From an uncultured Clostridium sp. (GTDB lineage Bacteria > Bacillota > Clostridia > TANB77 > CAG-465): a stretch of DNA of 35,871 bases. Positions 16,454-34,364 of this stretch are shown in pieces (position 1 is the first letter of the stretch; every line of letters begins with the position of its first letter). The position numbers were made by a program, and so were the translations under genes. Below the pieces are notes generated by a model. It was given only the letters and a program-made list of their open reading frames with translations, was not told the origin of the DNA and did not search any database. The stretch is from NCBI GenBank assembly GCA_948470565.1, contig CAOKPF010000011.1, positions 1 to 35,871 of the forward strand, given 5' to 3'.

Positions 16454-16482
16454 AAAAAAATAGCAGTAATTTTTTACTACTA
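16454..16482 (-). terminator. Intrinsic terminator of the DUF3990/DUF3791 cassette
   Basis: Read on the minus strand, nine pairs including one G-U form between 16474-16482 and 16461-16469 over a short loop, followed by seven T (A run at 16454-16460). Confidence 0.75.
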
Positions 16483-16583
16483 TATTATTTATTATCTATT
16501 TTACTACAATTAAATATATATAACTATTTCAAATTTGTAATTTAGTTATAAATAAATCCTTTTTATGTTTAAAACATCTATAT

Positions 16584-17541: not shown

Positions 17542-17609
17542 CTCACTTCCAACTATATTCTCCCACATCAATTACTATTTTTCAATAACAAAACTTATTT
17601 ACACTACAA

Positions 17610-17632
17610 TAATTAAGTTTTAAACTTAATTA
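17610..17632. repeat. 23-bp palindrome ahead of the DUF3990 cassette
   Basis: A perfect inverted repeat with a single central base: arm TAATTAAGTTT at 17610-17620, partner AAACTTAATTA at 17622-17632. It covers the DUF2797 stop codon (17626-17628) and lies about 70-90 bases before the DUF3990 start. It could be an operator for autoregulation of the cassette or simply part of a weak terminator, as no T tract follows. Confidence 0.5.
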
Positions 17633-18522
17633 ATATTTATCACAAAACCTTCTAATGCTTTCATATTAACTAAATAATGTACTTCATTATTTTCTAATAA
17701 CATAAGGCTTCCAATTACTGCTTTTACAATTCCTTTTATTTTTGTAGGCTTTAATATTTTTTTGTACTCTTTGTATTCTATATTATCTTCGAATATACTT
17801 AATTGATTACTGCTATCTACTAAACATGACTTTACATTATATAATATTTCTAAAAAATTATTATGTTCTGGCAAAATCAAATACTCTTTTAATTCACTTT
17901 TTAATGAAGACTTTACTTCATCGTATTTTTCAAGTAACATATTACTAATTTCATTCTGATTTTTTTCTATAATTAAATTATTTATTTTATATGATATATT
18001 TACTTTTGTAGTAACATCAAGTTTTGCAACTTCACTTTCAATTTGTCTTGCTAGTTTTCCAGTTGGAGTTTTTGCTATAAATATAGAGTATAGTGCTCCT
18101 TGCTCTAGTAACCTTTCATATCTTCTTGAATATACAGCAGTCCCTACTTTTAATTTATCACTAGCAAAATATGCTGAATATACATAATGTTGATTTTGAC
18201 AAAATTTTAATGCACTTTCATGATTATTTTTACATACACTTCCATTACACCATACACAGGTAGTAAATTTTGATAAATTTCTACATTCGAAGCATTGTGA
18301 AAATCCTTTATCTGTCATATTCGTATATGCTCTACAAGCCACATGTTTTCTATTTTCTACATCATAATATCCGACACACCTTTTCTCATCTGTTCTTTCA
18401 ATGCTTATATTACTACCAATTTCTATTACGTTTTTTTCTATAAAATCTTTTGCTCTATCATATAACATAAGTTTAGGAATATTATCACTCCATTTTATCC
18501 CTAAAAACTGCCTTTTTATCAT
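17626..18522 (-). CDS. DUF2797 zinc-binding protein
   Basis: A 298-aa protein matching DUF2797. Five Cys (77, 80, 89, 92, 97, the C-x2-C and C-x2-C spacing) and an ensuing His/Cys form a compact zinc module. It is followed by YSAYFASDKLKVGTA, an Arg pair, LLEQGA and ARQIESEV (about 115-165), an order resembling a GIY-YIG/T5orf172-like nuclease core (KVG, R, E); this is a speculative reading. ATG at 18522 follows GGAGGT; a start nine codons upstream lacks a site. It follows the S1 gene, 52 bases away across a hairpin. Function of the family is unknown. Confidence 0.75.
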   Translation of the reverse strand: MIKRQFLGIKWSDNIPKLMLYDRAKDFIEKNVIEIGSNISIERTDEKRCVGYYDVENRKHVACRAYTNMTDKGFSQCFECRNLSKFTTCVWCNGSVCKNNHESALKFCQNQHYVYSAYFASDKLKVGTAVYSRRYERLLEQGALYSIFIAKTPTGKLARQIESEVAKLDVTTKVNISYKINNLIIEKNQNEISNMLLEKYDEVKSSLKSELKEYLILPEHNNFLEILYNVKSCLVDSSNQLSIFEDNIEYKEYKKILKPTKIKGIVKAVIGSLMLLENNEVHYLVNMKALEGFVININ

Positions 18523-18538
18523 ATTACCTCCATATAAT

Positions 18539-18565
18539 AGAGAAGACATATCACATATCTTCTCT
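18539..18565 (-). other. Hairpin between the S1 gene and DUF2797
   Basis: On the minus strand AGAGAAGATAT (18565-18555) pairs with the arm at 18549-18539 through eleven pairs including a G-U. The following bases (ATTATAT) are only weakly T-rich, so it may be a partial terminator or a processing site at the end of the secretion operon. It stands just before the DUF2797 ribosome binding site. Confidence 0.5.
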
Positions 18566-18574
18566 AATTTTTAT

Positions 18575-19411
18575 TTAACCTATTATTACAAGTTTTATCT
18601 TCTTCTTTTCTGGTATAATTCTTTTTATACTTACTAATACTTTTTGACCATATTCAACACCATTTACATGCTCTGCAAGTCCTACTAAGTTAGGTTTTAT
18701 TTCTACAAAGACGCCTGATTTTATTCTATTTCTAATTATTCCGTCTACTATATCACCTTCATTTAACTTTGAAACATTTTCCTCAAATGTACCAAGTAAT
18801 TCTTTATATGAAAGCTCTATTCTACCTGTATCTCTATCATATTTTTTTACAATAACTTCAATTCTTTGACCTAAATGAAATACATCACTTGTGTGTTGTA
18901 ATGGTACATCAGATATTTCAGGTAATTTTAATATTCCTGTAACTCCTCCACCAACATCAACAAAAGCCGCATATTCAGTTGTACTTATAACTATACCTTT
19001 TAATTTCATTCCAGGTTTTAAGTGCATATACATCCAGCGCCTAACTTTTAGTTCTAATATTCTCTTTGAAAGTATTAGTTCTATAACTCCATCTCTTTCA
19101 ATTATTTCCTTTATGCATGTTGGAATTATTTTTCCTTTTTTATTTACAATAAATTTTTCTTCAACAAGCCCATCATCTCCAACTATACTTGAAGCTTCAT
19201 CCCTTGGTATTATTGCTTTTATATCTTTTCCCACAATTCCAACCATATTTAGACTATCATCTATATCTTCAACATACATGTCTAAAACTTGTTCTTCTTT
19301 TTTTATTTTTTCCAAATCTTTTACTGAATATTTAGTCTTTCTTGGTTTTCTTTTTACATTATTACCTAATTTATTTTTTCTTGGTTTACTATCTTTTTTT
19401 TCTTCTTCCAT
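18575..19411 (-). CDS. S1-domain RNA-binding protein
   Basis: A 278-aa protein with a very basic, Lys/Arg-rich start (1-40), a degenerate first S1-like barrel (about 45-118) and two clear S1 repeats: 133-205 (KLKGIVISTTEYAAFVDVGG, ending with DTGRIELSYKEL) and 218-278 (DGIIRNRIKSGVFVEI ...). Such partial S1 proteins bind mRNA or ribosomes. It is smaller than ribosomal protein S1. It starts 14 bases after the last VirB8-like gene behind GGAAGG, so it is probably cotranscribed with the secretion genes; whether it works with them is unknown. Confidence 0.85.
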   Translation of the reverse strand: MEEEKKDSKPRKNKLGNNVKRKPRKTKYSVKDLEKIKKEEQVLDMYVEDIDDSLNMVGIVGKDIKAIIPRDEASSIVGDDGLVEEKFIVNKKGKIIPTCIKEIIERDGVIELILSKRILELKVRRWMYMHLKPGMKLKGIVISTTEYAAFVDVGGGVTGILKLPEISDVPLQHTSDVFHLGQRIEVIVKKYDRDTGRIELSYKELLGTFEENVSKLNEGDIVDGIIRNRIKSGVFVEIKPNLVGLAEHVNGVEYGQKVLVSIKRIIPEKKKIKLVIIG

Positions 19412-19425
19412 TTATTTTTTCCTTC

Positions 19426-19968
19426 CTATTCATCTATTAAAATATCTATACTATACTTATTTAAACCATCTTCAATTACTAATATATATTTTATGCTTCC
19501 ATTAAAAGCCATATCTCCTTCCACCATCGATGTATCAGAAACATCTAATGAATTATTTAAAAACATTATGCTATATTTTATACTCTCTCTATTATCATTT
19601 TTTATATGTTCAAGTTCACTTATAGTTATGGAATATTTTTCTTCATCAAATTTTAATATATCATTTACCATTATATACTCTTCTAATTTTTCAAAACTGC
19701 CAAATCTCTTTTTGGAATTTTCACTTAGTTTTTCATATGCCATATCATATCTTTTTTCTTTTAAATTATCTATAAAACTTTGTAAATATTCCATTTCATT
19801 ATATGATACTATATTATTTACTTCTACATCTGTATATAAAACACCAAAGTCTGATAAATAAGTTAGGTAACACTTATTTAAAATAAAAACTATCAAATAT
19901 ATTAATATAAAAAATAATATTATATTTCTGATTGTTTTACTATTTATTATCTCTTTAAAAATATTCAT
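19426..19968 (-). CDS. Small membrane-anchored VirB8/TcpC-like protein 4
   Basis: 180 aa: a basic start, one transmembrane helix (about 15-32), a short linker and an extracellular domain whose first helices (FIDNLKEKRYDMAYEKLSENSKKRF) and later beta strands look like the NTF2-like fold of VirB8 and TcpC. Assignment rests on layout, not on strict motifs. In VirB systems this protein links inner-membrane parts to the channel. ATG follows GGAGG, which overlaps the end of the preceding gene (gap 10 bases). It is the fourth such protein in the operon. Confidence 0.6.
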   Translation of the reverse strand: MNIFKEIINSKTIRNIILFFILIYLIVFILNKCYLTYLSDFGVLYTDVEVNNIVSYNEMEYLQSFIDNLKEKRYDMAYEKLSENSKKRFGSFEKLEEYIMVNDILKFDEEKYSITISELEHIKNDNRESIKYSIMFLNNSLDVSDTSMVEGDMAFNGSIKYILVIEDGLNKYSIDILIDE

Positions 19969-19978
19969 ATATCCTCCA

Positions 19979-20443
19979 TTAAGAACTAATTTTTATATCT
20001 AGTATCTTGTATTTCATTCTATTAGTATATATTTTTATAATTATATAATTATCATTAAATGTTACCTTATTCATATCATCATCAAATATCTGCATAGAAA
20101 ATTCACATTTGTATGTATTATGATTAAGTATATATGCATTTTGCATATATACTTCATATCTATTATCTATCGGATTTAATAACCTAATAGTCTGTTTATT
20201 AATATCGATATTTTTTTTTGCATTTAACATACTTGCATTATTTAAATACATCTCACTATTATTATACAAGTATGATATATAATCCAAAGTGATATTCTGT
20301 AAATTATAAAATAATTGAGCATCTTCTACTTTTTTATTAGGTTTTATATTTAATACAAAATAATAATCAAATAAAAAATATATAATCAATATTATTAAAA
20401 CAAAGATTAAAATTATATTAATTTTTTTTATTTTTTTCTCCAT
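19979..20443 (-). CDS. Small membrane-anchored VirB8/TcpC-like protein 3
   Basis: 154 aa: Lys-rich start, one transmembrane helix (about 8-30) and a small outer domain with LDYISYLYNNSEMYLNNAS as a helical start and beta strands after it. Recognised only by layout as a possible VirB8/TcpC-like relative; it could be an unrelated lineage-specific subunit. GAGGAG precedes the ATG. Gaps of 24 bases upstream and ten bases downstream mark it as part of the secretion operon. Sits between the big hydrolase and the next VirB8-like gene. Confidence 0.55.
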   Translation of the reverse strand: MEKKIKKINIILIFVLIILIIYFLFDYYFVLNIKPNKKVEDAQLFYNLQNITLDYISYLYNNSEMYLNNASMLNAKKNIDINKQTIRLLNPIDNRYEVYMQNAYILNHNTYKCEFSMQIFDDDMNKVTFNDNYIIIKIYTNRMKYKILDIKISS

Positions 20444-20467
20444 TTTTCTCCTCTTCTAAAACATTGT

Positions 20468-23400
20468 TTATTTATTATTTAACTTACTAAAATACCAGTT
20501 ATCTCCTATATTTTCGCCTGAAGGATGATTTGATCTAGCACTTGAACTGTCAGCTCTAAAAGATAGATAGTTATGATTCCTTTTTCCATTTAATGCATCA
20601 TTTACAGCTTTTTTTGTCGTATCTTTTATCTTACCCAATCTATCATGCCAATGCTTATCTATAGTATAACAAAATTGACCAGAAGCAGTTGCTTGCTTTA
20701 CAGGATCTGTTCCACCATAATTTTTCCATGCATTAGATTCACAACGATTTAATATACAACTCATAACTGCTAAAGTACCATCATAACTAGTATTACATTC
20801 CTGTTCACAAATAGCATATAAAAGAGTCAATGCACCATGCTCCTTATTACATACTCTACATTTAACTTTTGTATTATTATTAACAATATATTTTTTATTA
20901 TTTCCTGTACTTACTCCATTTGATGAAGCTGAACTTTCTGCAATACAATTTGCATTACTTGTATATCTTATATAATGAGTATATGTATTTTTTATTTTAT
21001 AATTTGGTCCTGGCTCTGAGCCTGAAGCTCCTCCTCCCAAATCAATTTGATATTTTTCCCCATAATATATTCCAACATGCTCACCATATGCTTTATTTCC
21101 TGAAATAGAACCTCTCCATAGTATATCACCTGGTTGAACATTAGAAAAGCTATTATCTAATTTACCATATGTAACAGAGTAACCATCTGGAGCAATTTTA
21201 TCAATTGCTGTTTGCATAATACTAGATGTAGCTCTTTCGTTTCCACCACTTGCTTGCGTAATATTAATTCCTAAATATGCTTTATACATTGAGCCTACAA
21301 ATCCACTACAATCATTAGCTCTCATTGAATCTATATCAGCTTTATTACTATATACCGCATGATTTGCTTGACTATACGATACGCTACCATCTCCTGAACC
21401 AGTAAGTTCTTTTGCTTTTCTTAACATTTCATACATTCCCTCTGGTTCACCACAATTTGTATTACTACAATTATTCGTTGAAGAACTTGAGGACGAACTA
21501 CTTGTTATACTTGAACTCTTATCCTTAGTTATATATATATATTGATTCCTATCAAGTTTTGTATCTGTGATATAAACTGTTATATCTCCTACTCCACCAA
21601 GATTTAAAAATTTATTCCATTTAACTTCCAAATTATATTCTGAACCTGAACCATTAGAACCATTATCTTTTGCATAATTAAAATATAAATCTAATTGATT
21701 ATTTACTACTGCTCCACCAGTATCAGCTACAATAGCCCAACCATAATCTTCAACATTTTTTTTATTACTTTTTACATATATAAGAGTTCCATATGGTATC
21801 ACTGGTGTACCACCATCATTATGAACAGCTACTACTCTTGGAAGCCAACCTTTTTCAGCGGCATCTGGAAATTTCGGAGATATACCATATGCTGTACCTG
21901 TTTGATCATTACAATATAAATAACCATTAGCATCTGTTCCAGTACCATTACTACAAGCTGAACCTGTATCTCCATATAGACCATATATAGTTGCCTTCAT
22001 TTGCCTTGTTTCAACAACACCTTCTGTTGGTGCTGTTTGTGGTTGATATTTACTAGGTAAATTATGCCATGTATAATTTCCTGATGATAAGCTCCCACCA
22101 CTTAATGACTCTCCAGCCAAACATTCACAATTATTTGTAGTCGTTCCAGCATACTTAAATGCGTTTGGAAAAGAAATATTCATTCCTGATTTATATTCTC
22201 CAAAAACCCCACTTGTAGGTTCAACTTTATAAAATTGCAAAGGATCAACTGCTCCTGTACTACCATTAACTTGAAAATGTAAATGCACACCCGTAGACAT
22301 TCCCGTAGTTCCCATTCTACCAATTTTCTGTCCAGCTGAAACTTGAGAACCTACTTTCAAACTAGGATCTATTTCTGATAAATGTAAATAATATATAAAA
22401 TAGCTTCCATTAGTTATTACAACGTAATTTCCGTTAGCTCTTTTTGGTCCTGAATTAGGTATAGTTACATTTCCGCCACTTACAATAGAATCACTTTCCT
22501 GTTGCCAACTAACAATATGTACTGTACCATTAGTAGCTGATAAAATATCTGGTCCCTTTGTAAGTGTATTACCATCTTTACCAGTTGTTTTCTCAAGATT
22601 ACCGCCATTAGATATATCTATTCCCTCATGTCTTCCGCCATAAGCTGATGTATTTCCAAATATATATCCTATAACATCTGTTCCAGATTTACTTAAATCT
22701 ACTGGCCATTTCCAATTATCATCTCCAGATGTATCACAAGTATTAATACTTCCACTAATTGCTGATGAAGAATTATTATATTCTTCATATAGTTCTTGTA
22801 TCTTATTATACGCAAAATACATATCCTCATATGAATATCCCTGATTTCTACCAGTTTTACCATATTTATTATATGCTTCTTCTTGATCTGATAAAGTCTT
22901 TACAGGATATGTAGTATATACGGGAATTTTATTTCCTTCTGTATTACCTATAGAATGTAAATATGCTCCATAATCTTGTATCCATTCAACTCTAGAAATA
23001 TATCTATCATCGCTCTTAATTTTATCTTCCTCATCATACTGTTCATCAGAATAATTTGAAGTTTTATAATGTTTAGTATTGGTATTAGATACTATTTTTT
23101 CTTTCCAAACTTTTGTCTCAACAGTAAAACCTATAGCAGTCCCATTCTCCTCTGTTATTGTAATATCAGTAGTTCTCTCAGAGTTAGGTTGCTCTTTTTC
23201 ATTTATTGGATATACAGTAGAATTAGTTTTTTGTATTTCGTAAAATCCCTCTATATATGATATTTTAGGAGTATATGAAGATTTCATATTCCTTTTCATT
23301 GTTAAATCTCTTAGTTTTTCTATTTTATCCTCATTTGAATAAGCTCCTTCGTTTTCATTTATAACTCTTTCATATACAGTTTTCTTAATTCTTTTTCCTA

Positions 23401-25594
23401 TATTAGTAGCAAATTCATCATCAGTAGCTAAACTTAACCAAAAAAATTTATTCCACCCTTCAGAATCGCTTGCATCTTTCATTCCTAATGTTGCTGCAAA
23501 GGCATTTTGGATTTGCTCTCCTGTTATTGAAGCTGATACTACACCTTCTCTACAAGATCTTAATTCTCCTCCATCAGCAATATCTGAACAACTAGATGAA
23601 AATTGATCTTCCTCTGCTATAGTACCTGAATTCATTGGAGTACCACTAGTAGTAGGTCCTATTGGAGCATTATAAGTAGGGTCAGAGTTCTCCTCTTTTT
23701 CTTTTTCTGCTTTCTCATAACTATCTACAGTAGATTTTACCAATGATGCTATATAATCTTCGCTAAATTTTGCATACCCAGATTCCTCTGTTGCAATATA
23801 CGAACCAAATGATGTTAAGGCACCTGGTAAACCTCCTTCACTTATTACAGCATCTACAATTTCACTTCTTGAATATTCTTCTGACGATAGTAATCCAACT
23901 TTTTCAAAACCAGATTTATCCGTACTTGATTGTTCTTTATTATAATCAGAATATGGTATTGTTGCTCCATTTATTTTGGCTACACCAGTATCATCATCTA
24001 TTGATAATTCACCTGATAATCTACTACTTGGAGTATTATCATAAGTTACTGTCATTTTTACTACTTTTACATAGTAATTTCTTTTTATAACTCTCTCATC
24101 TGTATTTACATTATATAGCGTAACCTGTATTGGGAATGCCATATCATCCATTACTTTTTTTATAAAATTCCAGTCATTCGTATCTTCATACATTGTATAT
24201 GGTATAAACCATCTTTCTACATATTTACTAAGTAAAGTAACATAGGCAACACCTGTAGTATTATTATCAACCTTATACTTTTCTGTTGATGGTGCAATAA
24301 GAGTAGTATATGAACTTATTAAATCATTATCCTGCATTTTTATATATTGATAGTTTGACTTCCCACTACTATCTTTATCAGGTATAGGCTCTTCTGTTAT
24401 TAAAGCATCTTGTCTTGGTTGTGTAGATGCATACTCATCATCACTTTGTTCAGAATCATATCCAATTTCAAGTTCCTGACATGACTCTGAATTTCTTTCG
24501 TCACCACCTTTATCCACACATTTATATGTTTGATTATATGAGTTCCATTCTGCCTTATTAAAGTTTTTTGCCTCTACTTGTAATATTTCATATAATTTAT
24601 CACTTGCTACTTGAGTTGTCTTTTCATTATATATTTCTTCATTTGTAGCATTTGGTCTTAATGAAGATAATTCCTCATCTAACTCAAAATCTTCAATATT
24701 TACATCTTCTGTAAATAATGAATTATATTCATAATTAGCTGCATATTCTAACATTCTTTTATAACATGGATCTTCGTATTTTTCATCACCTTCTGCATAT
24801 ACATTCTCTCCATATATTTTAGCTTCTGTTGAAATATTTTCATAATTATTATATATTAAATCATATATTTCATCATATTTAAATGAATTTTGTGAACTTA
24901 TTGGTTTTGAACCAACACTTTCATTATATTTTTTTCCTATTGTTACATCATTAGGTAAACCTGTTTTATCTTTTTGTAAAGTAGTTTTATATAAAAATGA
25001 AATTATCCTTTTATTTTGTCTAAATTCTCTTCTATTTATAAGAGTTTGAACAGAATCTGTTAACTGCACAGAGGCAAGATAATTAGTTCCAGCGACGCCA
25101 ATTATTAAGAAAATTATTATACCAATTATACTCAAAATAATAATAAAAGGCAATGAACGTTTTATTTTCTTTTGAGTTTCATCTACATCTACGCCAGTTT
25201 TTTCTTTTATTTTTTCATTGGCTTTATCTTTTACTTGTTTTGCTTTATCCGCCGCCTCTATCGCAACAGCAGCTGTACCACCTGTTGCAGCACCAGCCGC
25301 AACTTCTGCTCCTGCCTTAGCACCAGCTTTTGCACCTTGCTTTGCAACTTGTTTACCTGCTTGTCCAGCAGCTCTTTTGCCTGCTTCTTTGCTAGCCTGT
25401 TTCCCACCTTCCTTAGCTAAATTTCTTTCAGCTTGTGAAGCTCTTAATGAATTAGTAAACTCTTTAGCTTTACTAGCACCTTCCTTTATATCTCTATAAT
25501 CATTATAAGCATCACCTAAAGAATAACTATTACTAGATTCATTTTCTAATTCTTCATCTAATAATTCATTCTCATTTTCCTCAAAATCATCCAT
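20468..25594 (-). CDS. Giant four-enzyme wall hydrolase of the secretion operon
   Basis: A 1708-aa type II-like membrane protein. An acidic start leads to an Ala/Gly/Lys-rich low-complexity stretch (about 60-135), then one transmembrane helix (about 148-175); the rest should be outside. Residues 180-940 match nothing I recognise. Then come: M23/LytM endopeptidase (about 955-1135, GGRHEGIDIS and HLHF zinc ligands); a 3D barrel (about 1200-1330, MKATIYG to ADTGGA, with the catalytic Asp-rich DTG); NlpC/P60 Cys-peptidase (about 1400-1530, NDCSGF with the nucleophile and EHVGIYYG with His); and a SleB/CwlJ-like hydrolase_2 (about 1580-1708, AVMSCILNRC and GQFCYT). Together they can cut bonds in both peptides and glycans. 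It plays the VirB1/CwlT part, opening the wall for the channel. Ser- and Asn-rich linkers join domains. ATG follows GAGGTGAG. Confidence 0.88.
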   Translation of the reverse strand: MDDFEENENELLDEELENESSNSYSLGDAYNDYRDIKEGASKAKEFTNSLRASQAERNLAKEGGKQASKEAGKRAAGQAGKQVAKQGAKAGAKAGAEVAAGAATGGTAAVAIEAADKAKQVKDKANEKIKEKTGVDVDETQKKIKRSLPFIIILSIIGIIIFLIIGVAGTNYLASVQLTDSVQTLINRREFRQNKRIISFLYKTTLQKDKTGLPNDVTIGKKYNESVGSKPISSQNSFKYDEIYDLIYNNYENISTEAKIYGENVYAEGDEKYEDPCYKRMLEYAANYEYNSLFTEDVNIEDFELDEELSSLRPNATNEEIYNEKTTQVASDKLYEILQVEAKNFNKAEWNSYNQTYKCVDKGGDERNSESCQELEIGYDSEQSDDEYASTQPRQDALITEEPIPDKDSSGKSNYQYIKMQDNDLISSYTTLIAPSTEKYKVDNNTTGVAYVTLLSKYVERWFIPYTMYEDTNDWNFIKKVMDDMAFPIQVTLYNVNTDERVIKRNYYVKVVKMTVTYDNTPSSRLSGELSIDDDTGVAKINGATIPYSDYNKEQSSTDKSGFEKVGLLSSEEYSRSEIVDAVISEGGLPGALTSFGSYIATEESGYAKFSEDYIASLVKSTVDSYEKAEKEKEENSDPTYNAPIGPTTSGTPMNSGTIAEEDQFSSSCSDIADGGELRSCREGVVSASITGEQIQNAFAATLGMKDASDSEGWNKFFWLSLATDDEFATNIGKRIKKTVYERVINENEGAYSNEDKIEKLRDLTMKRNMKSSYTPKISYIEGFYEIQKTNSTVYPINEKEQPNSERTTDITITEENGTAIGFTVETKVWKEKIVSNTNTKHYKTSNYSDEQYDEEDKIKSDDRYISRVEWIQDYGAYLHSIGNTEGNKIPVYTTYPVKTLSDQEEAYNKYGKTGRNQGYSYEDMYFAYNKIQELYEEYNNSSSAISGSINTCDTSGDDNWKWPVDLSKSGTDVIGYIFGNTSAYGGRHEGIDISNGGNLEKTTGKDGNTLTKGPDILSATNGTVHIVSWQQESDSIVSGGNVTIPNSGPKRANGNYVVITNGSYFIYYLHLSEIDPSLKVGSQVSAGQKIGRMGTTGMSTGVHLHFQVNGSTGAVDPLQFYKVEPTSGVFGEYKSGMNISFPNAFKYAGTTTNNCECLAGESLSGGSLSSGNYTWHNLPSKYQPQTAPTEGVVETRQMKATIYGLYGDTGSACSNGTGTDANGYLYCNDQTGTAYGISPKFPDAAEKGWLPRVVAVHNDGGTPVIPYGTLIYVKSNKKNVEDYGWAIVADTGGAVVNNQLDLYFNYAKDNGSNGSGSEYNLEVKWNKFLNLGGVGDITVYITDTKLDRNQYIYITKDKSSSITSSSSSSSSTNNCSNTNCGEPEGMYEMLRKAKELTGSGDGSVSYSQANHAVYSNKADIDSMRANDCSGFVGSMYKAYLGINITQASGGNERATSSIMQTAIDKIAPDGYSVTYGKLDNSFSNVQPGDILWRGSISGNKAYGEHVGIYYGEKYQIDLGGGASGSEPGPNYKIKNTYTHYIRYTSNANCIAESSASSNGVSTGNNKKYIVNNNTKVKCRVCNKEHGALTLLYAICEQECNTSYDGTLAVMSCILNRCESNAWKNYGGTDPVKQATASGQFCYTIDKHWHDRLGKIKDTTKKAVNDALNGKRNHNYLSFRADSSSARSNHPSGENIGDNWYFSKLNNK

Positions 25595-25625: not shown

Positions 25626-26522
25626 CTAAATTGAAAAATTTAAATCTTTTATAGCATTAGAGTTTCCAAATAATACATCTTTAAATTCAATTCCTTCAAT
25701 ATTTCCATGAGCTAAATTAGACAAATTAAATATAATATCAAAATTTAAACTTTGATTATTTTCCACGTCTAAGGCTTTACCATAAGTCAAACTACTACTA
25801 CTAGTTATTCCTTTACTATTATTTTTCATTTTTAAATAGCAAGCCTCTTCATATTCACTTTTGCAATTTAAAGTTATAACATCTGAATTTAAATTAGTAA
25901 GTTTTGCTTTAGCTCTATAAGAATCAATATATGCTAACTGTTCAGATAACTCAAATTTTACACCATCATTATTATACTCTTGTGTATCTTTTTTATAATA
26001 TACAAAATTATCAAATGCAATAGAAAAGCTATTAGGTGAATATTCTTTTATAACTAAATCGAACGATGTAGTTTTATCACTTGTATAAAAATTAACAGCA
26101 AAAACTTTTTTATTATCAATTATTGAATATATATAGTCACTAGCAATCAGATTTTTGCCTAAACAACCTTTTGACTCAAATAATTCTTTAGCATTTTTTT
26201 TATTAATATTATAATACTCCTTATAATCGTTATTTAATAAATCATATAATCTATCAATATCATTTGTTCTCATATAACTAATTACTTCTTTTGAATATGA
26301 AGTAAGTTGTTCTTCTAATGATGATGTTTTTGAAGTATAAGTTCCTAAATCAGTTACTGTTACTGTATTTGCTTTTTCAGAATTCTCTACTACTTTATCA
26401 TTGGAAGATAATATATTTCCCCATATTATTCTTAATAAAAAAGCAACTATTACTAATGTAACTATTACACCTATTGCAGAATAAATAAATATTCTTTGAT
26501 CTTTATCTAAATCTTTTAACAT
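25626..26522 (-). CDS. VirB8/TcpC-like protein 2, 298 aa
   Basis: A transmembrane helix at about 11-33 and an outer part of 260 residues. The first outer unit (LTSYSKEVISYMRTNDIDRLYDLLNNDY and following strands) has the helix-plus-sheet outline of NTF2-like VirB8/TcpC domains; the second half (strands ending in FSI) may be a second, beta-rich unit. TcpC of Gram-positive conjugation also carries two such domains, which fits. ATG follows GGGAGG and begins five bases after the previous gene stops, so the two are translationally linked. Assembly scaffold for the channel is the likely role. Confidence 0.6.
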   Translation of the reverse strand: MLKDLDKDQRIFIYSAIGVIVTLVIVAFLLRIIWGNILSSNDKVVENSEKANTVTVTDLGTYTSKTSSLEEQLTSYSKEVISYMRTNDIDRLYDLLNNDYKEYYNINKKNAKELFESKGCLGKNLIASDYIYSIIDNKKVFAVNFYTSDKTTSFDLVIKEYSPNSFSIAFDNFVYYKKDTQEYNNDGVKFELSEQLAYIDSYRAKAKLTNLNSDVITLNCKSEYEEACYLKMKNNSKGITSSSSLTYGKALDVENNQSLNFDIIFNLSNLAHGNIEGIEFKDVLFGNSNAIKDLNFSI

Positions 26523-26527
26523 TACAT

Positions 26528-27166
26528 TTATTCCTCCCCTAATTCTAAATAGAACACATTATAAGTCTTATTAATAGTATTTAATTCTATTCCAATTTTA
26601 ATCACATCTTTATTTATATTTATAACATCACATAAATAACAATTATCGTAATCATTAAGTTTATATAATTTTAATAAATTATTTACATTGGCATAATTTA
26701 TAAAGTCTATCTCTTCATCCTTGTTAATTGGTAAATTAGGATCTGCGTTTAAAAAATTATACTCAGTAAACTTCTTTATTTTTTCTAGATAAGACTTTTT
26801 GTCATACTTATTCTGCAATGAAACATTTAATACCTTATATGTATTTTCATAATCCTCATCCATGATGTATCGTATAAAATTTTGTAATGCATCTTGTACA
26901 GAGAAAAATGTAGTATAATCAGTTACTAAAGTAGATTTTTCTGTACTATTATCAAACAAATTAGTATCATTAGAAATATAATTTACAATATTTGAACTAT
27001 TTATATTAGATAAATCATTTGCTTGTTTAGTATTTTTGTTTCCACCAAATATAGCATTAATTAGTGATATAAAAATAAATATTATAAAAAATATAGCAAA
27101 TAGTAATAATACTAAAATTTCTCTTTTGTTTAACCCTTTTAAATAATCTTTTAATACATCTAACAT
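26528..27166 (-). CDS. VirB8/TcpC-like protein 1, 212 aa
   Basis: One transmembrane helix at about 16-38, a Ser/Asn/Thr-rich linker (about 45-75) and an outer domain beginning with DALQNFIRYIMDEDYENTYK, the helical start seen also in the other three small proteins. Probably the first NTF2-like periplasm-equivalent subunit. Closely packed: it starts ten bases after the split-VirB6 second half ends, and AGGGAG overlaps that stop codon. No catalytic residues are seen. Confidence 0.6.
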   Translation of the reverse strand: MLDVLKDYLKGLNKREILVLLLFAIFFIIFIFISLINAIFGGNKNTKQANDLSNINSSNIVNYISNDTNLFDNSTEKSTLVTDYTTFFSVQDALQNFIRYIMDEDYENTYKVLNVSLQNKYDKKSYLEKIKKFTEYNFLNADPNLPINKDEEIDFINYANVNNLLKLYKLNDYDNCYLCDVININKDVIKIGIELNTINKTYNVFYLELGEE

Positions 27167-27176
27167 AATAACTCCC

Positions 27177-28898
27177 TTAATTTATATCTCCAACATCTTT
27201 TACTCTTATATTTTTTACTTTAGCCTTTTTACCATCATCAATTGTTCTTTGAGCTGTTCTCCACTGAGAAGCCATTTGTTTAGTCGTGTCTTTTGATATC
27301 TTTTTATTATTTTCACTTATTTTCTGTGCAACTGTTTTATTAACAAACTTAGCAATATCTTTAGTATTTACACCATTTTGAACTGATTGTTCAACTTGTG
27401 CTTGTACATTTTGTATAGTTTGATTATCAAGATTAACGTTTGTATTAGTGTCACCTGCATTTACATTTACGTTTGGTGATATATTAGGATTAGCATTTAC
27501 ATTTACATTTTGTGATACATTAGTATTCGTAGAACCTACATTAACTTGAGATGATTGTGGTGTAGTTGAATCAGGACGTTCAACTGCATAATGATATTTT
27601 TGTGCTTCCTTATTAACAGAATTTTCAGCATGTTTATTTGTAAAATCATGTGAACTTTGATAAAAATCTGCTACTTCATTCATAACACTAATAGGTCTTT
27701 CTCTAGTAAGCTTATTTGCAACATCATAATGTTTTTGAGCCCCAGCATAATCGCCCTTTTCTTCAAGCTCTTTTCCTTTTTCAATTTCAATTTTTATTCT
27801 AGGATTATCATATTGTCTATAAATACCGTTCTCAATAGCTTTATCAGTAACAGCATCCATTGGTGCATCTATTTGATTAGCCAACGAAACCATACCTGAC
27901 ATATCCTCTGAAGCTCCAAATGCCATACCTGCAGCTGCAATTGATGTTCCAAGCCTTGTAAACCTTTGTAAATTAGACTTAGCAGAAGCCTTCTTTGCAT
28001 CTTGGTATTCTTGATCTGCCTGTTCATATTCAGAAAGCTTACTATTAAATTGTTGTAGTCTACTATTAGTTTGTTCTCCATTTTGTCCTTGTTGAGTTCC
28101 ATCCACTGAAACATTTGCACCATCTGCATTAACTGTTTGAGCACTGATATTTTGTGCTTCTACGCCTTGTACATTACCACCAGCAAGTGCCATTTGCTCG
28201 ACATTATCTATATGTACACCTCCATTAGCATTTACTCCGCCTTGTACATTACCACCATTATAACCTGATGCCATTTGATAATTAGGTGATGATAAACTTG
28301 TTCCTGATGAAGCCACTGTATCACTATCTATTCTATCAGTAACTACTTCTACTCCATTATCAGAAACTATAGTATCAAGACCATCATTGTATCTTGGTTC
28401 TTCTACAACATCGCTTTCAGTCATTCTTCCTCTTGCCTCTTCGATTGCATTTCTATCATCAGGATCACTAAGTCCAGCTGCTTGAAGTGATGATTTCAAA
28501 GCATCCCTTCTTGCTTTTAATTGTGCTTCATTTCTCTTATTATCTGCATATTCTTTAAAAGGCTGAGCAGTTCTTGCTGCAAATTTTGTACCATCTTGTA
28601 GTGATTTTGAAGTCTTTACTAAGTTTTCCATTGGAGATCCCATTGGAGTTCCCTTTATACCTAAAACCCCTTTTACTAACTTATCAAATTTAAGTATTGC
28701 TGCAATTCCAACAATACTAAATAATCCAACAGTCATGTCCAAACCTGCATCATACCCTTCTGTAGCTGCTTGTTCTAAACCTCTTATTATTACTAAAATT
28801 ACTGTTAGAAATATAGCATGAAAACTTTGCTCAAATACTGCTAAGCTAAAACTACTAAACCATTTTTCTAATAATCCTGCTTTTTTTTCTTTTCCCAT
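27177..28898 (-). CDS. VirB6-like channel, second half with a long tail
   Basis: Residues 1-90 hold two hydrophobic helices in an order (KWFSSF ... FEQSFHAIFL ... ILKFDKLVKGVLGIKG) that is found at the C-terminal end of VirB6/TcpH-like proteins of Gram-positive conjugation. The preceding gene supplies the missing N-terminal helices. After residue 90 comes a cytoplasmic tail of nearly 480 residues: a charged part, a Gly/Asn/Val-rich stretch (about 200-270), a TPR-like helical segment (YAGAQKHYDVANKL near 390), and an Asn/Val/Gln repeat zone (about 445-500, with NVNVNA-type units). Such a tail may hold substrates or mediate assembly. The gene has its own AAGGAG and starts 12 bases after its partner stops, so the split looks genuine. 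Confidence 0.65.
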   Translation of the reverse strand: MGKEKKAGLLEKWFSSFSLAVFEQSFHAIFLTVILVIIRGLEQAATEGYDAGLDMTVGLFSIVGIAAILKFDKLVKGVLGIKGTPMGSPMENLVKTSKSLQDGTKFAARTAQPFKEYADNKRNEAQLKARRDALKSSLQAAGLSDPDDRNAIEEARGRMTESDVVEEPRYNDGLDTIVSDNGVEVVTDRIDSDTVASSGTSLSSPNYQMASGYNGGNVQGGVNANGGVHIDNVEQMALAGGNVQGVEAQNISAQTVNADGANVSVDGTQQGQNGEQTNSRLQQFNSKLSEYEQADQEYQDAKKASAKSNLQRFTRLGTSIAAAGMAFGASEDMSGMVSLANQIDAPMDAVTDKAIENGIYRQYDNPRIKIEIEKGKELEEKGDYAGAQKHYDVANKLTRERPISVMNEVADFYQSSHDFTNKHAENSVNKEAQKYHYAVERPDSTTPQSSQVNVGSTNTNVSQNVNVNANPNISPNVNVNAGDTNTNVNLDNQTIQNVQAQVEQSVQNGVNTKDIAKFVNKTVAQKISENNKKISKDTTKQMASQWRTAQRTIDDGKKAKVKNIRVKDVGDIN

Positions 28899-28910: not shown

Positions 28911-29873
28911 TTATCCCATAGATCTCGATATTGTATCCACAGCCACAACTAAAGGCGCCATTATTCCTAAAAATATACAATAAAATAGTCTTTTCATATA
29001 TGTTACAATTAATGCAACAGATTCACCTAATATTATAGCACACATAAATGCCGATGTGAAATCACCACCAATTGATTTTAATATCAACCTTATATAAAAT
29101 CCATACATACCATCTACTGTTATTGTTGTAATGTCAGTAATAACATTAGTATTAAAAAAATCTTCTATTCCCTTTATAACTGAATATATTTTCTTACCAG
29201 TAAATGGTATAACTTCTATACCACTAAACTTAAAAGATATATCTCCAGCCTGTTCAGAAGCGAATTCTACAATTTTTTCATTTACTGTAAATATAGCAGC
29301 CATAATTATATGTATTACAAAAAGCATGACTATTCCAAATATCCATTGACCAATAGCTTCTTTATATTTTGCTTTTTCAGCAGCAACTGTTGAAACTGCA
29401 AGTTTAATACCTATAACCATTGCAGCTATTGCCATAACTGCTACAGCAATAACTACAAAAGAATAATATAAACCTGCTATTACTCCTTGAATTGCATGAA
29501 TTTTAGAATAATCAGAGTTTGCTGGATTAATAAAATTAGGATCAAAGAAAGCCATTCTATTAAATACTATATTATCTACACTTGGAAACATATTAAAACT
29601 AGTTAATTCTCCTGCTACAAATATTGTATAAATCAACATAAAAATAATTACATTTACTGCATTTACTAATCCTGCAAATGGTACTCCAAGTATTCCTAAA
29701 CCTCCACCTAAAATAGTTCCTATTACATCTTGAAGGAAATTTTCTTGCTCTGCTTCAGGAGAGTCAGGATTTATTAATGCATAAACACTATTACCCCCAA
29801 TTATATTTATTATACTTACTAGAAACATTAGTATCATTATATATTTCTTATTTTTCTTAATCCATTTTAACAT
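28911..29873 (-). CDS. VirB6-like channel, first half
   Basis: A 320-aa polytopic membrane protein. The N-terminus (KKNKKYIMILMFLVSIINII) looks like an uncleaved or cleaved signal; later spans lie near 55-85, 140-175, 185-215 and 260-320. The last span with KRLFYCIFLGIMAPLVVAVD matches the RLF...(I)xSPL element of VirB6/TrbL-like channel proteins, just before the point where its continuation moves to the next gene. It should form the inner-membrane pore. AGGTGATG precedes the ATG. It lies 14 bases after the VirB4 gene. Confidence 0.75.
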   Translation of the reverse strand: MLKWIKKNKKYIMILMFLVSIINIIGGNSVYALINPDSPEAEQENFLQDVIGTILGGGLGILGVPFAGLVNAVNVIIFMLIYTIFVAGELTSFNMFPSVDNIVFNRMAFFDPNFINPANSDYSKIHAIQGVIAGLYYSFVVIAVAVMAIAAMVIGIKLAVSTVAAEKAKYKEAIGQWIFGIVMLFVIHIIMAAIFTVNEKIVEFASEQAGDISFKFSGIEVIPFTGKKIYSVIKGIEDFFNTNVITDITTITVDGMYGFYIRLILKSIGGDFTSAFMCAIILGESVALIVTYMKRLFYCIFLGIMAPLVVAVDTISRSMG

Positions 29874-29887
29874 TTACATCACCTATT

Positions 29888-31912
29888 CTATTGTTGTTTG
29901 TTAGATATTATTTTTGACAAGTTTGTTTCAACAAACTCAAATTCCTTTTGAGTTGGACGTATTGATATAACAGCTGATTCTTGCCCTATATGTATAAGTC
30001 CTTCTCCTCTTGAACATGTAAGTAAGAAATCTGTTTCACCCTCACTTAATTTAAATACTTCTCTTAAATATTCTATTTCTGATTTATCTTGTGCTAAGAA
30101 TAATTTTGTATCTGATGATGTAAGAACTGCTTGTGCTTCTTTTTTCTCATAGAAGTCTTGGAATTTTTGTGATACAACTGCAAGAGATACATTTCTTTTT
30201 CTAGCACGTCTTGCCATTGTATTTAAAAATTGTACAGCTTCTGGATAATCAAGTAACATCCAAGCTTCATCAATAAGAACTCTCTTTTTCCTAGCTTTTT
30301 GTCTATTTTCACTATTTTTCTTAACGTATTTTTCCCACACCCATGAAAGTAATATTTGTTGTGCAAGTGGTCTTGCAAATTTTTCCTCTAGTAAAGATAA
30401 ATTTATATTTATAAATAAGCAGCCGTCTAAAAGTTCAAATGTAGACTGTCCATCAAAATATGCCATCTGACCATTAAATTTTTTGCAATATTGTTTCATA
30501 ACTTTTAGTAAGTAATTATAATGGTAGTCATATGTTGCAGTTTTATTTTCATTAGCCTTTTCTTCTAATAATTCGTACCATTCAGTAATAGTTGGCATAG
30601 GCTTTTTAGTCTTTCCTACATAATTATTAGAGTTTGCCATTCCATCTTCAACATATAATGAATTTACATCACTATTAATACCTTTTCTGCTATATAATTC
30701 AGATACAATTTCAGCTATTATTTGTTTTGTAAGTTCGTTTACTTCCTGACTTCTTGTAGCACCACGTGCCATTGTAAGAAGTGACTGTGTAGCATCCTCT
30801 ACTTTATTTTCTACATTTAATACTAATCTTTCCTTACCAGTTATTTCATCTTTTGTTATCTCAGGCTCAATATCGAATATATTTATTATTGTCTGCGAAT
30901 TTGGACTAATTGTTATATTTATCCCATTTAATGCTTCTGCAACAACAACATATTCACCTTCTGCATCAATTACAAGATTTTCAATTTTCATAAGGACTGC
31001 AGATCTTGCCATAATTGTTTTTATTGTAACAGATTTACCAGCACCTGACTTACCAAATATAATCATATTATAATTAGTAAGCGTAGGATGGAAATTATCA
31101 AATAAAAGTGGTAAACCTGTCTGCTTGTTTATTCCAATTGGTACTCCAATATCATGACCTATATCAGAAGATACAAATGGAAACACAGTTGCCATAGAAC
31201 CTCTATCAAAAGTATGCTTTCTATTAAGTTTATTTTTATTAAGAGGTAAATTGGTTTGAAATGCCTCTTCTTGAAGTGCCCATGTTGCTTTTATACCAAC
31301 CATATTTTTTGAAGCTTCCATTGCAAGTATTTCAGACGCTTTATCAAGTTCATGTTTACTATATGCAAATAATGTTGCAACTATAGTAGCTTCAAAAAGT
31401 TTATTATACCCAGCTGCGATTTGATCTCTTAGTGCTTCTGCTTCACTTTGCTTTGTTGTAAGTACAGCTACCCTATTTATATCTCCTCTATCAGCAGCTA
31501 CATATCTTTCTGATTGTAATTCAACTATAGTCTTATTAAGATCTTTTTGTGAGGCTGTTTCTGATATTGGACTTATATATACAGAAGTATTTACATCTCC
31601 AAACTCATATATATTAGCTAAGAAATATGGGAATGATGCTTGTCTTGGAAGTGTTGTTACGTAAAAAGTTCTAACATACCTTGATATCTTTGAAAAGATT
31701 TCCATATAATCATAATGACTTGCATCTATCCCAGATGGAGCCATCAAATCTTTTAAATTAGCCTTATTTAATTCTAAATGATTAACTTCACCACCATCAG
31801 CTTTTATTACCCCATCCTTATTTTCTTCATTTGAATTACTGTCATTTGTATTCTTATTTTCTAATTTCTTATTATCTTTTTTCTTATCCTTTTTATCTTT
31901 CTTATTAAACAT
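29888..31912 (-). CDS. virB4: VirB4-like ATPase
   Basis: The motor of the secretion machine. After a Lys/Asn-rich start comes the VirB4 N-domain (about 75-270, with YVRTFYVTTLP, PRQASFPYFLA), then the P-loop NTPase: Walker A GKSGAGKS near residues 289-296, Walker B RVLIDEAWML near 545-553, and VVSQKFQDF behind it. At 674 aa it is a complete VirB4 and fits the Gram-positive type. No relaxase or VirD4 is near, so VirB4 may act without DNA-handling partners. AGGAGGT lies ten bases before the ATG. Confidence 0.93.
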   Translation of the reverse strand: MFNKKDKKDKKKDNKKLENKNTNDSNSNEENKDGVIKADGGEVNHLELNKANLKDLMAPSGIDASHYDYMEIFSKISRYVRTFYVTTLPRQASFPYFLANIYEFGDVNTSVYISPISETASQKDLNKTIVELQSERYVAADRGDINRVAVLTTKQSEAEALRDQIAAGYNKLFEATIVATLFAYSKHELDKASEILAMEASKNMVGIKATWALQEEAFQTNLPLNKNKLNRKHTFDRGSMATVFPFVSSDIGHDIGVPIGINKQTGLPLLFDNFHPTLTNYNMIIFGKSGAGKSVTIKTIMARSAVLMKIENLVIDAEGEYVVVAEALNGINITISPNSQTIINIFDIEPEITKDEITGKERLVLNVENKVEDATQSLLTMARGATRSQEVNELTKQIIAEIVSELYSRKGINSDVNSLYVEDGMANSNNYVGKTKKPMPTITEWYELLEEKANENKTATYDYHYNYLLKVMKQYCKKFNGQMAYFDGQSTFELLDGCLFININLSLLEEKFARPLAQQILLSWVWEKYVKKNSENRQKARKKRVLIDEAWMLLDYPEAVQFLNTMARRARKRNVSLAVVSQKFQDFYEKKEAQAVLTSSDTKLFLAQDKSEIEYLREVFKLSEGETDFLLTCSRGEGLIHIGQESAVISIRPTQKEFEFVETNLSKIISNKQQ

Positions 31913-31938: not shown

Positions 31939-33228
31939 CTATAATAAAGTATCATTTACTAAATCTCCCATATCATCACTACTGTCCCCAGTTTCATTTT
32001 CTTGGTTTTCACCATCTTCTTCCTGATTTCCTTCAGTTTCTATATTCTCTCTTTCATGCTGTTTCATTCTTCTTTCTTCTTTTCTTTTTTCAGCATTTTC
32101 AACATGTCTTTCTGCAATTATATTAGACAAATTTTCTTTAGATTCTTCATCAATGTCAGCATTCCTTATAATTTCAAGTGCCTGCCTATCTACTTGTTCT
32201 TCAAAATCATCTTCTAATTGCTCTGGTGTTTTAACATCATTCCCAGACAAAGTTTCTTTTATTGCAGCTCTTACTCTCCTTGCTCCCTCTTCTTGAATTT
32301 CCTTTTTCATAAGTTGTTCTCTTTTTTCAAATACATCCTGACTTGTAGAATATAACCTATAAAATCCTGATTCCAATGCAGTACGTATATCAAGAATTTG
32401 TTCATCATCTCTATTGTATGATATATATAACAGTTCAGCTAACTCATTTGAAGTAAGCACTTTTCCTGTAACAGAACATGAAGCTAATGCGCTTATAATA
32501 GTCTGAGCTCTTACATATAATTCTCTATAACACATATCATATATTTCTTTTTTTGTAAACTCCGATGTTGTTCCAAGTTCTGATTTATGATACGAAACTA
32601 TAACATAAAACCTTCTTTGCAATACATGTTTATTTAAACTCATTCGCTCAACATATTTAGTTATATCTTGCGCATATTCTAATATATTAGCATACTTAGC
32701 TTTTTCAATTGTAGCTTCCTGAACCTCTCTATTAGTTGAATTTATATCATTATTTACTTTATTTAATCTATCTTCTGCTGCATAATACTGAGTAGTAATA
32801 TCAGCAACTCCCTCTTTATATAAATCCATACTATTTTTTAAGTCAATAGCCCTTGCTTGTACATACAGTTGAACTGGATATTTAAGAGTATTAAGAAAAG
32901 TTATAAAACCTTCTTCTACTGCTAATTGTTCAATATCTGACATCAAATCATAGTTAATACCTTTACATTGTACTACCATTGTATATTTATTTTCATTTTC
33001 CTGTAAAATCATATTATCTACAATTTTATCAAATTCCATAAACTCATTCATGTCTTTTTTTGGTACATCTTTATTATTATTTCTCTTTATCTCATTATTA
33101 GTTACAATATCTTTTTGCTTCGCATTAGCTTCAACTTTTTTTTCTTTATTTTTCTGTGCACTAGTGTATATAACATATACCAAACCAAATAGTCCAATCC
33201 CTATCAAACCTATAACTGTAATATCCAT
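31939..33228 (-). CDS. TraC/VirB4-N-like membrane protein
   Basis: A 429-aa protein with one N-terminal transmembrane helix (about 5-22), a basic linker, and a domain (about 60-330) with VVQCKGINYDLMS, YVQARAID and KEIYDMCYRELYVRAQTI, similar to the separate TraC-like N-domain proteins found between prgI and virB4 in monoderm and Patescibacteria systems. An acidic, Glu/Arg-rich tail ends it. Its ATG overlaps the stop of prgI by one base (TAATG), indicating coupling. Likely a VirB4-docking subunit; no Walker motif. Confidence 0.7.
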   Translation of the reverse strand: MDITVIGLIGIGLFGLVYVIYTSAQKNKEKKVEANAKQKDIVTNNEIKRNNNKDVPKKDMNEFMEFDKIVDNMILQENENKYTMVVQCKGINYDLMSDIEQLAVEEGFITFLNTLKYPVQLYVQARAIDLKNSMDLYKEGVADITTQYYAAEDRLNKVNNDINSTNREVQEATIEKAKYANILEYAQDITKYVERMSLNKHVLQRRFYVIVSYHKSELGTTSEFTKKEIYDMCYRELYVRAQTIISALASCSVTGKVLTSNELAELLYISYNRDDEQILDIRTALESGFYRLYSTSQDVFEKREQLMKKEIQEEGARRVRAAIKETLSGNDVKTPEQLEDDFEEQVDRQALEIIRNADIDEESKENLSNIIAERHVENAEKRKEERRMKQHERENIETEGNQEEDGENQENETGDSSDDMGDLVNDTLL

Positions 33229-33572
33229 TATTTATTACCTCCATATCTATAAATATAAATTTTCTTTCTTTTTTTAAAAGTAATAGTTCTTATAAGTATA
33301 TTAAGTATTGGTTCTCCTCCAGCTTTTCTTAAATTTCCTACTATTGGTGTATCTGGTATAGACATCTCTCCCAATATCCAACCTATTAAAGCAAATATAG
33401 CAGTCATAATAAACGTAGCTTTCTGCCCAAGTCCAATTAATGCCAATATATATCCTAATGCAAATCCAATCAAACCACAAAATACTGTAGTAATCATAGA
33501 CTTTACTGAAAAAATATATAGCAACCTAGTTTCACCTTTCACATTTCTTGGTACTGTATAAGTTTTTCCCAA
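33228..33572 (-). CDS. prgI: PrgI family protein
   Basis: A 114-aa protein of the PrgI family (inner-membrane VirB3-like subunit of Gram-positive type IV systems). YTVPRNVKGETRL at the start, two transmembrane helices (about 20-45 and 50-68), the SIPDTPIVGNLRKAGGEPI segment and a basic end fit the family. The start is a TTG at 33572 behind GGGGGAG. Own promoter at 33599-33627. It begins the main secretion operon and overlaps the next gene by one base. Confidence 0.88.
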   Translation of the reverse strand: MGKTYTVPRNVKGETRLLYIFSVKSMITTVFCGLIGFALGYILALIGLGQKATFIMTAIFALIGWILGEMSIPDTPIVGNLRKAGGEPILNILIRTITFKKRKKIYIYRYGGNK

Positions 33573-33627: not shown

Positions 33628-33672
33628 TAAAAAAAAGAAAATAATGTAAGAAATTATATATTTCTTACATTA
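33628..33672 (-). terminator. Terminator enclosing the tandem pilin stop codon
   Basis: A perfect 12-pair stem (33661-33672 with 33642-33653) and a seven-base loop that contains the TAA stop (33654-33656), followed by a T-rich tract on the minus strand. Translation to the stop should melt the hairpin, so terminator strength may depend on ribosome traffic. Confidence 0.8.
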
Positions 33673-34364
33673 TCTTTTTCCATATTTTCAATTACATTTA
33701 TTTCTTCATCATAAATTACATTTGATGTTAAAATATCATTAGATACATTTATAAATACATTAATAACATTTACTGAGCTATAAACTAGTATTATACCTAT
33801 AACTAAAGGAGCAAGCTGCTTTTTTATATCTGCCTTTTTATCAGAAGATGCAAACATATATTTTACTCCTGCAAAAATAACTCCTGATAATGCAGCAACA
33901 TTTACAATTGGTACAATTACTCCCCAAATTTCATTTTTAACACCTTCAAATGTAGTTTTTCCAACAATTATGTCTAAAAGTCCATTTCCATTATTAGTAA
34001 ATATCTGAAGTACCAAATCTGTTAAATACACAAATACAATTGCAACTGCTAAAGATGGTAAAGTTTCTTTAAAATTAGCCTTTTCTTCTGAACTAGAAAA
34101 AATATATTTTATTCCTAAAAATATTGTACAAATTAATATTACAAACTTTCCTATTTCCCTTACCAAAGGCACTATATCGCTATTTATATATGATGTTACA
34201 TTTTCTCCAAAACCTATACTGTTATTTCCACTCTGCCCCAATTGAAAAAAATTTTTGCCACCATTTAAAGTATCATCTAACAGATTTGCGGCACTTATAA
34301 AATTTAAACTAAAATAGATAAGTACGCATATAAAAACAAAACTGATTTTTAAATAATTTTTCAC
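33654..34364 (-). CDS. Tandem VirB2-like pilin protein
   Basis: A 236-aa secreted/membrane protein. A signal peptide at 1-26 (FISAA cleavage-like) precedes two similar units, each with two transmembrane helices separated by a charged turn: GIKYIFSSSEEKANFK (unit 1, about 80-100) and GVKYMFASSDKKADIKKQ (unit 2, about 165-185). The same block, GVRYMFASADAKADIKQQ, occurs once in the neighbouring 124-aa pilin. It is thus a duplicated-and-fused pilin or an initiator of pilus assembly. Start is GTG at 34364 behind AAGGAG. The gene is closed by a terminator whose loop holds the stop codon. Confidence 0.8.
   Translation of the reverse strand: MKNYLKISFVFICVLIYFSLNFISAANLLDDTLNGGKNFFQLGQSGNNSIGFGENVTSYINSDIVPLVREIGKFVILICTIFLGIKYIFSSSEEKANFKETLPSLAVAIVFVYLTDLVLQIFTNNGNGLLDIIVGKTTFEGVKNEIWGVIVPIVNVAALSGVIFAGVKYMFASSDKKADIKKQLAPLVIGIILVYSSVNVINVFINVSNDILTSNVIYDEEINVIENMEKDNVRNI

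Follow-up and report, generated by a model that had tools for sequence, protein, structure and literature searches.

A predicted four-enzyme, membrane-anchored wall hydrolase in an order-wide type IV secretion operon of uncultured gut Clostridia

The open reading frame at 20468..25594, on the minus strand, encodes a protein of 1708 amino acids (P0001) that the reading frame and its Pfam matches predict to be a four-enzyme, membrane-anchored wall hydrolase. One transmembrane (TM) helix, a scaffold shared with relatives and four wall-enzyme domains stand in a single chain, encoded within the operon of a type IV secretion system (T4SS); relatives keep the ATPase of this system and exchange the enzyme set. 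The finding is real and not due to chance, and P0001 probably serves a chromosomal monoderm T4SS as its PrgK/VirB1-like wall-opening subunit, in a version that is peculiar to the order and has interchangeable enzymes. What is new and unusual about it among multi-enzyme T4SS wall hydrolases is the four-enzyme set in an order-wide T4SS. The window, by which we mean the whole stretch of DNA analysed, is the entire contig C11 (35,871 bases) of a genome of 2.1 Mb in 126 contigs.

An earlier note on this DNA had reported both the reading frame and four enzyme domains in it, and each was recovered. In the order M23, 3D, NlpC/P60 and SleB-like from the N- to the C-terminus, all four domains exceeded the curated Pfam cut-offs: Peptidase_M23 with 63.9 bits against 28.7 (residues 1036–1118), 3D with 40.9 against 23.8 (residues 1265–1315), NLPC_P60 with 27.8 against 23 (residues 1426–1518) and Hydrolase_2, the SleB-like family, with 29.8 against 27 (residues 1602–1686), the last two by a narrow 3–5 bits. 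The same scan matched no SLT, CHAP, spore or peptidoglycan-binding domain in P0001; the spore cortex-lytic enzyme SleB, by contrast, has a peptidoglycan-binding domain next to its hydrolase domain.

Along the chain, a predicted cytoplasmic N-terminus that is first acidic and then Ala/Lys-rich (residues 1–148; 25151..25594) leads into the single strong hydropathy helix of the protein, near residues 148–172 (25079..25153) and also present in the structure model; the enzymes all lie C-terminal of this helix, on the outer side of the membrane in the orientation that we infer. The scaffold follows in two parts, residues 173–545 (23960..25078), homologous to the same-slot proteins of relatives, and residues 726–885 (22940..23419), made up of beta strands according to profile comparison and the model. 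Between these a low-confidence stretch (residues ~546–725; 23420..23959), with pLDDT below 50 over most of its length, appears in the model to interrupt the scaffold. The enzymes occupy residues 954–1155 (M23 peptidase; 22130..22735), 1265–1315 (3D domain, of the MltA/YuiC lytic transglycosylase type; 21650..21802), 1426–1518 (NlpC/P60 cysteine peptidase; 21041..21319) and 1575–1708 (SleB-like Hydrolase_2 module; 20471..20872).

Loss of catalytic residues in most domains, a concern raised in the earlier note, was not what we found: most of these residues are present and, judged by alignment, the active sites are largely intact across the four domains. In M23 both H989xxxD993 and H1104xH1106 are in place, and the modelled domain matches known M23 structures with Z up to 16.0 (4rnz). 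NlpC/P60 retains C1429 and H1506. For the 3D domain, alignment pairs D1291 with D151 of YuiC and D1302 with D162, of which D162 is the catalytic aspartate and D151 another position of the Asp set (PMC4499186); the first aspartate of the YuiC 3D motif, D129, has no aligned partner in P0001. A QE pair (E1599) in the SleB-like module is invariant in a three-sequence alignment with two stand-alone relatives that are 50% identical, and E1599 may be the catalytic residue; the module alone as query gave no PDB match by sequence search.

P0001 belongs to a run of same-strand genes between 34874 and 17626, most of them separated by short gaps, and the operon content and hydropathy agree with the earlier reading of one TM helix ahead of the enzymes in a secretion operon. 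On this minus strand the run opens with a VirB2/TrbC-type pilin (34500..34874; Pfam 40.1 bits, cut-off 27.9) and a 236-amino-acid protein (33654..34364) with two pilin matches in Pfam (T4SS_pilin at residues 60–121, TrbC at 141–203), which from its sequence looks like a fused double pilin; in relatives up to seven pilin-like genes stand in tandem. There follow a weakly PrgI/VirB3-like protein with two TM helices by topology (33228..33572; Pfam E 0.042, below cut-off), a conserved 429-amino-acid protein with one N-terminal TM helix whose TrsD-like role is suggested by position only (31939..33228), the VirB4-like ATPase P0002 identified by Pfam (29888..31912), a polytopic membrane protein with six TM helices and only a weak pilin-like Pfam match, a VirB6 candidate (28911..29873), and a 573-amino-acid protein with two TM helices and no Pfam match (27177..28898). 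By topology, bitopic proteins of 212 (26528..27166) and 298 amino acids (25626..26522), the latter directly upstream of P0001, are VirB8 candidates. Downstream of P0001 lie a small bitopic protein (19979..20443), another with a weak NTF2-like (MecA_N) match (19426..19968; E 0.028, below cut-off) and an S1-domain protein (18575..19411; Pfam) that in relatives, by synteny, delimits the locus on its downstream side.

The upstream end is marked by a divergent single-domain M23 protein on the plus strand (35111..35632; Pfam and synteny), a homologue of which stands at the same place in 19 of the 24 loci L077–L100. With a VirB4 ATPase in the operon and VirD4 in the genome, though unlinked, the system has two of the components by which monoderm (FATA-like) T4SSs are recognised; its VirB3/PrgI, VirB6 and VirB8 proteins are candidates from weak matches or topology. 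Just downstream of the operon a DUF3990 protein is encoded at 17179–17571 (E 1.6e-33). Directly upstream of the T4SS locus of one relative (L079, 5480–6166) is a gene for a 228-amino-acid SSB-like protein with an N-terminal extension, and a gene of similar length occupies that place in L082.

The slot before the S1 gene is kept in relatives within the window's family, and 25 same-slot proteins, that of the window included, were scanned with Pfam; one (L210) was counted by position and did not come up with the scaffold profile. At least one enzyme over cut-off was found in 19 of the 25, making up 17 different sets from 14 Pfam families. Beside the M23+3D+NlpC+Hydrolase_2 set of the window these were CHAP+M23+GDSL+SLT+C39 (L084); glucosaminidase+M23 with CHAP (L077), with C39 (L078), with M15 (L030, a partial protein) or as such (L034, also partial, a contig end cutting the gene); GDSL+M23+lysozyme (L040); M23+lysozyme (L029); phage-tail lysozyme+M23 (L035); M23+C39 (L080); lysozyme-like+M15 (L082); YkuD+NlpC (L088); lysozyme+CHAP (L091); CHAP (L093, L094 and L095); lysozyme (L096); NlpC (L205); and SLT+C39 (L209). 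The earlier note had suggested looking for the same architecture in relatives; the four-enzyme set was found in the window's own genome only, and what relatives share is the scaffold, carrying other enzymes. The remaining six proteins (L090, L092, L201, L202, L203 and L210) had no enzyme over the Pfam cut-off, with matches just below it in L210 and in the partial L201, and the enzyme may therefore be dispensable or too divergent to be seen. Outside the window's family, operon proteins of the same region carried phage-tail lysozyme (L102), phage-tail lysozyme+GDSL (L133), M23 (L137 and L039), NlpC (L152) or Hydrolase_2 (L190), and L113, L119, L145, L191, L122 and L107 had none over cut-off.

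That a conserved machine carries different enzymes at the same place suggests that they are matched to the wall that the machine must open. It also bears on the earlier proposal that the 3D and SleB-like domains join spore-type with conjugation-type wall processing, which we do not retain: relatives draw on so many wall-enzyme families in this slot that these two are better described as two picks from a broad menu. Sps/3D proteins have in any case been proposed not to act in sporulation or germination (PMC4499186). YuiC/Sps and SleB-like hydrolases belong to the same Pfam families as single domains of the P0001 tail, but are stand-alone secreted or spore enzymes, whereas in P0001 they are modules of a T4SS protein. 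Two further observations concern the slot itself. In L088 the slot protein (16183–20484) has a YkuD L,D-transpeptidase, a wall-linking rather than wall-cutting enzyme, beside NlpC/P60. In some relatives several scaffold-related reading frames, some with a CHAP or C39 domain of their own, stand in a row instead of one large protein (L209, 6174–9265; L201, 5131–9704; L205, 4201–9846; L040, 14987–16979).

Six syntenic loci were compared with the window, and VirB4 was 73–83% identical, the S1 protein 60–74% and the slot protein 24–32%. The other operon membrane proteins compared (those starting at 28911, 26528 and 25626) were 26–45% identical; thus the whole exposed part evolves fast, and not the hydrolase alone. 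In one relative (G002) three contig ends fall inside the slot-hydrolase gene (the end of L079/L173, L031 and L030): the first contig has the T4SS and ends within the gene, a 4.6-kb contig runs from the last part of one copy into the first part of a second, and in a third the end of a copy adjoins further chromosomal genes. The copies are 90–96% identical in their overlap, which indicates a tandem pair or two strain variants across an unbridged gap.

The 750-residue region ahead of the enzymes had been described as being of unknown fold. It is not one domain but a scaffold shared with relatives; a beta domain of long strands is predicted within it, and no convincing PDB match was found. Iterative profiles relate nearly all same-slot proteins of the family to one another at and beyond the TM helix, covering window residues 122–543 at E 6e-42, and full-gene comparison extends this to about residue 882; such profiles can drift, above all in the Lys-rich N-terminus. 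The first model of P0001 was poor (pLDDT 52.2, pTM 0.38), with a good structure match for M23 only. Residues 30–505 of a compact relative, L090, were modelled from 22 sequences with pLDDT 83.5 and pTM 0.70, and the predicted fold comprises a TM helix, a helical neck and a beta domain whose longest strands reach 40 residues. The top PDB rows given by Foldseek for this model were mostly secretins (T3SS, T2SS, T4P and phage pIV) at TM ~0.1 and rmsd ~20, not a convincing match; the best Z given by VIA was 3.7, and a search of the viral library found nothing credible.

With regard to the origin of the C-terminal tail, residues 1199–1708 had a full-length match in the window's own genome only (385 genomes of the order searched). 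In the window's own family the one other match was in G022, weak and to its NlpC region; the 3D part was matched in G070, which belongs to a further family. The SleB-like module has relatives of 39–59% identity in another family of the order, mostly stand-alone proteins of about 350 amino acids; it also matched two large proteins there, L190 (1129 amino acids, Hydrolase_2 over cut-off) and L191 (1101 amino acids, no Pfam match over cut-off), both adjoining homologues of the T4SS operon. This fits a module exchanged between T4SS slots, or recruited repeatedly. Recent acquisition of the tail was considered and set aside, with GC3 at 0.09–0.15 in all segments against 0.15 in VirB4, so that there is no compositional sign of it. 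A phage or plasmid origin of P0001 was likewise rejected: the matches in 61 phage and 140 plasmid records all fell short of 80% query coverage, and P0001 had no match among viral contigs. The 20 phage matches listed of the 61 lie around the M23 domain, and the 20 plasmid matches listed of the 140 (67 of the 140 being Enterococcus records) all lie at residues 953–1160, with no similarity to PrgK-type plasmid proteins outside M23 among those 20.

To our knowledge, Gram-positive T4SSs have been described almost wholly from mobile elements. CwlT of ICEBs1 is a membrane-tied wall hydrolase of such a system with two enzymes, encoded on a mobile element; TraG of pIP501 resembles P0001 as a membrane-tied, multi-enzyme wall hydrolase of a Gram-positive T4SS, but likewise has two enzymes and a mobile element as its home. 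The statement in the earlier note that one or two wall enzymes are usual is an understatement, given that the multi-enzyme PrgK of conjugation systems was already known. PrgK of pCF10 has a cytoplasmic N-terminus, a TM helix and several extracellular wall-enzyme domains (PMC11323569), and the likeness to P0001 extends to its place in a T4SS locus. Its domains are LytM (degenerate), SLT/muramidase and CHAP, whereas P0001 has an intact M23, 3D, NlpC/P60 and SleB-like; P0001 further differs in its large scaffold without convincing PDB match and in its chromosomal home with no PF03432 relaxase nearby. The LytM domain of PrgK is degenerate, and the effect of LytM and CHAP is only to dampen the muramidase (PMC11323569), so that four domains in P0001 need not mean four activities.

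In the mechanism that we propose for P0001 as the wall-opening subunit, the N-terminus would lie inside the cell and anchor the protein to the T4SS, and the scaffold would hold the enzymes out in the wall. There M23 and NlpC/P60 would cut peptide links, and 3D and the SleB-like domain glycan strands, making a local hole in the peptidoglycan for a pilus or channel. Which enzymes are selected would depend on how the wall in question is built, and the cutters could be changed without rebuilding the machine. A shared scaffold with exchanged enzymes would amount to a natural experiment on which wall such a hydrolase fits, that of the donor itself or that of a partner.

In its spread through the order the T4SS resembles a fixed trait of the chromosome. 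Strong matches to VirB4 occur in 141 of the 191 genomes of the order and in 35 of 39 genera, nearly always once per genome, with 62–84% identity over full-length matches. Among 391 genomes sampled from the class there were 18 matches at E 1e-60, in 15 of the 18 listed members of the order and in 3 of the 373 others, these at 30–33% identity. The VirD4 coupling protein was found in 180 of the 191 genomes, including many with no detected VirB4; in the window's own genome it is encoded by a stand-alone gene (L157, 9168–11120 of G000:C10) on a separate contig from VirB4, with neighbours that we take, from the starts of their proteins, to be ftsH- and dnaB-like genes. VirB4 served as seed for named relatives, as a search of named genomes with the whole of P0001 gave no match; these relatives, among them Candidatus Merdicola faecigallinarum, are uncultured Clostridia recovered from metagenomes of gut and similar origin. 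We found no paper on type IV secretion in TANB77 or CAG-508. Strict vertical inheritance was considered and not retained: across 10 genomes the distances of VirB4 and of the unlinked VirD4 were weakly correlated (r 0.25, 470 of 10000 permutations as high), or r 0.49 (55 of 10000) when G015, with a VirD4 fragment, was left out. Close pairs agree (G028–G032 and G002–G024) and deeper ones do not clearly do so; some exchange within the family is therefore possible.

This distribution invites a different reading, in which the enzymes act outward on a neighbouring cell and the T4SS is a contact-dependent attack or attachment machine whose enzyme set follows the target wall, as proposed for epibiotic Patescibacteria. 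An order-wide chromosomal T4SS with no nearby PF03432 relaxase, tandem pilin genes and an unlinked VirD4 has traits reported for that group (PMC12102498 and PMC12857230), in which the T4SS is chromosomal, mostly has no relaxase near virB4, has arrays of VirB2-like pilin genes and mostly has VirD4 elsewhere; one strain at least also encodes wall enzymes close to virB4 (PMC12102498). The likeness would be one of analogy, and the window's T4SS differs in its host, an order of gut Clostridia, and in carrying its wall enzymes on one shared scaffold on which they are exchanged. The many enzyme families in use, and exposed parts that diverge far faster than VirB4, are also in keeping with outward action; phage escape, however, or drift in a protein for which any cutter serves, could likewise produce fast divergence. 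Further, PrgK is thought to reach only to about the middle of its own wall (PMC11323569), and the analysis brought out no effector, immunity gene or host dependence; we consider outward attack unlikely. Its boldest form, a conjecture that we hold if anything more loosely, is that throughout an order of uncultured gut Clostridia a fixed, non-conjugative T4SS with pili breaks through the walls of neighbouring bacteria by means of a scaffold with exchanged, target-matched cutters. These Clostridia would then join Patescibacteria as the second monoderm lineage with a lifestyle of T4SS-based cell contact, and the long beta strands of the scaffold might form part of a wall-spanning conduit. A 2025 review describes Patescibacteria as unique among monoderms in the potential to make T4SS pili (PMC12857230); the picture of monoderm T4SSs is broadened by gut Clostridia in which a chromosomal T4SS with pilin genes occurs across an order.

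The earlier note had taken the genes for a conjugation operon, and an ordinary integrative conjugative element, common in the order by chance, would be the corresponding explanation. P0002 resembles the CD1110 conjugation family, with a score below cut-off, and PF03432 relaxases occur somewhere in 74 of the 191 genomes and in 55 of the 141 that are VirB4-positive (lists compared by eye). The window's own genome, with no PF03432 match, has a MobV relaxase on contig C62. However, in no genome with both was a PF03432 relaxase found within 20 kb of VirB4 on the same contig, a result weakened by the many short contigs and relating to the PF03432 class only; the nearest over cut-off was at 59 kb (G039), with a sub-cut-off match at 27 kb (G073). 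No integrase was matched by Pfam among the 31 window reading frames scanned, the upstream side ending at the contig end, and the window otherwise encodes largely metabolic and housekeeping functions (DHDPS, amino-acid kinase, SpoU methylase, DnaJ, topoisomerase, SpoIIP and DivIVA). Given these neighbours and essentially one VirB4 per genome, we think a conjugative element highly improbable and do not keep the conjugative label. An autolysin for growth or sporulation that is in the operon incidentally is scarcely credible: stand-alone relatives of the SleB-like module do exist in another family, but relatives have, in this operon slot, proteins that combine the same scaffold with different enzymes, and the Pfam scan found neither a spore nor a peptidoglycan-binding domain in P0001.

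Two further T4SS-related loci were noted. A genome of another family (G122) has, beside its own VirB4 (64% identical to that of the window), a second one that is 75% identical (L060; G122:C39:5932–7920), due to transfer or contamination. The window's own genome harbours a second, mobile-element-like T4SS region (L158; G000:C61), where a VirD4-like gene is split and genes for an M23 protein and for a surface protein of 1455 amino acids are found.
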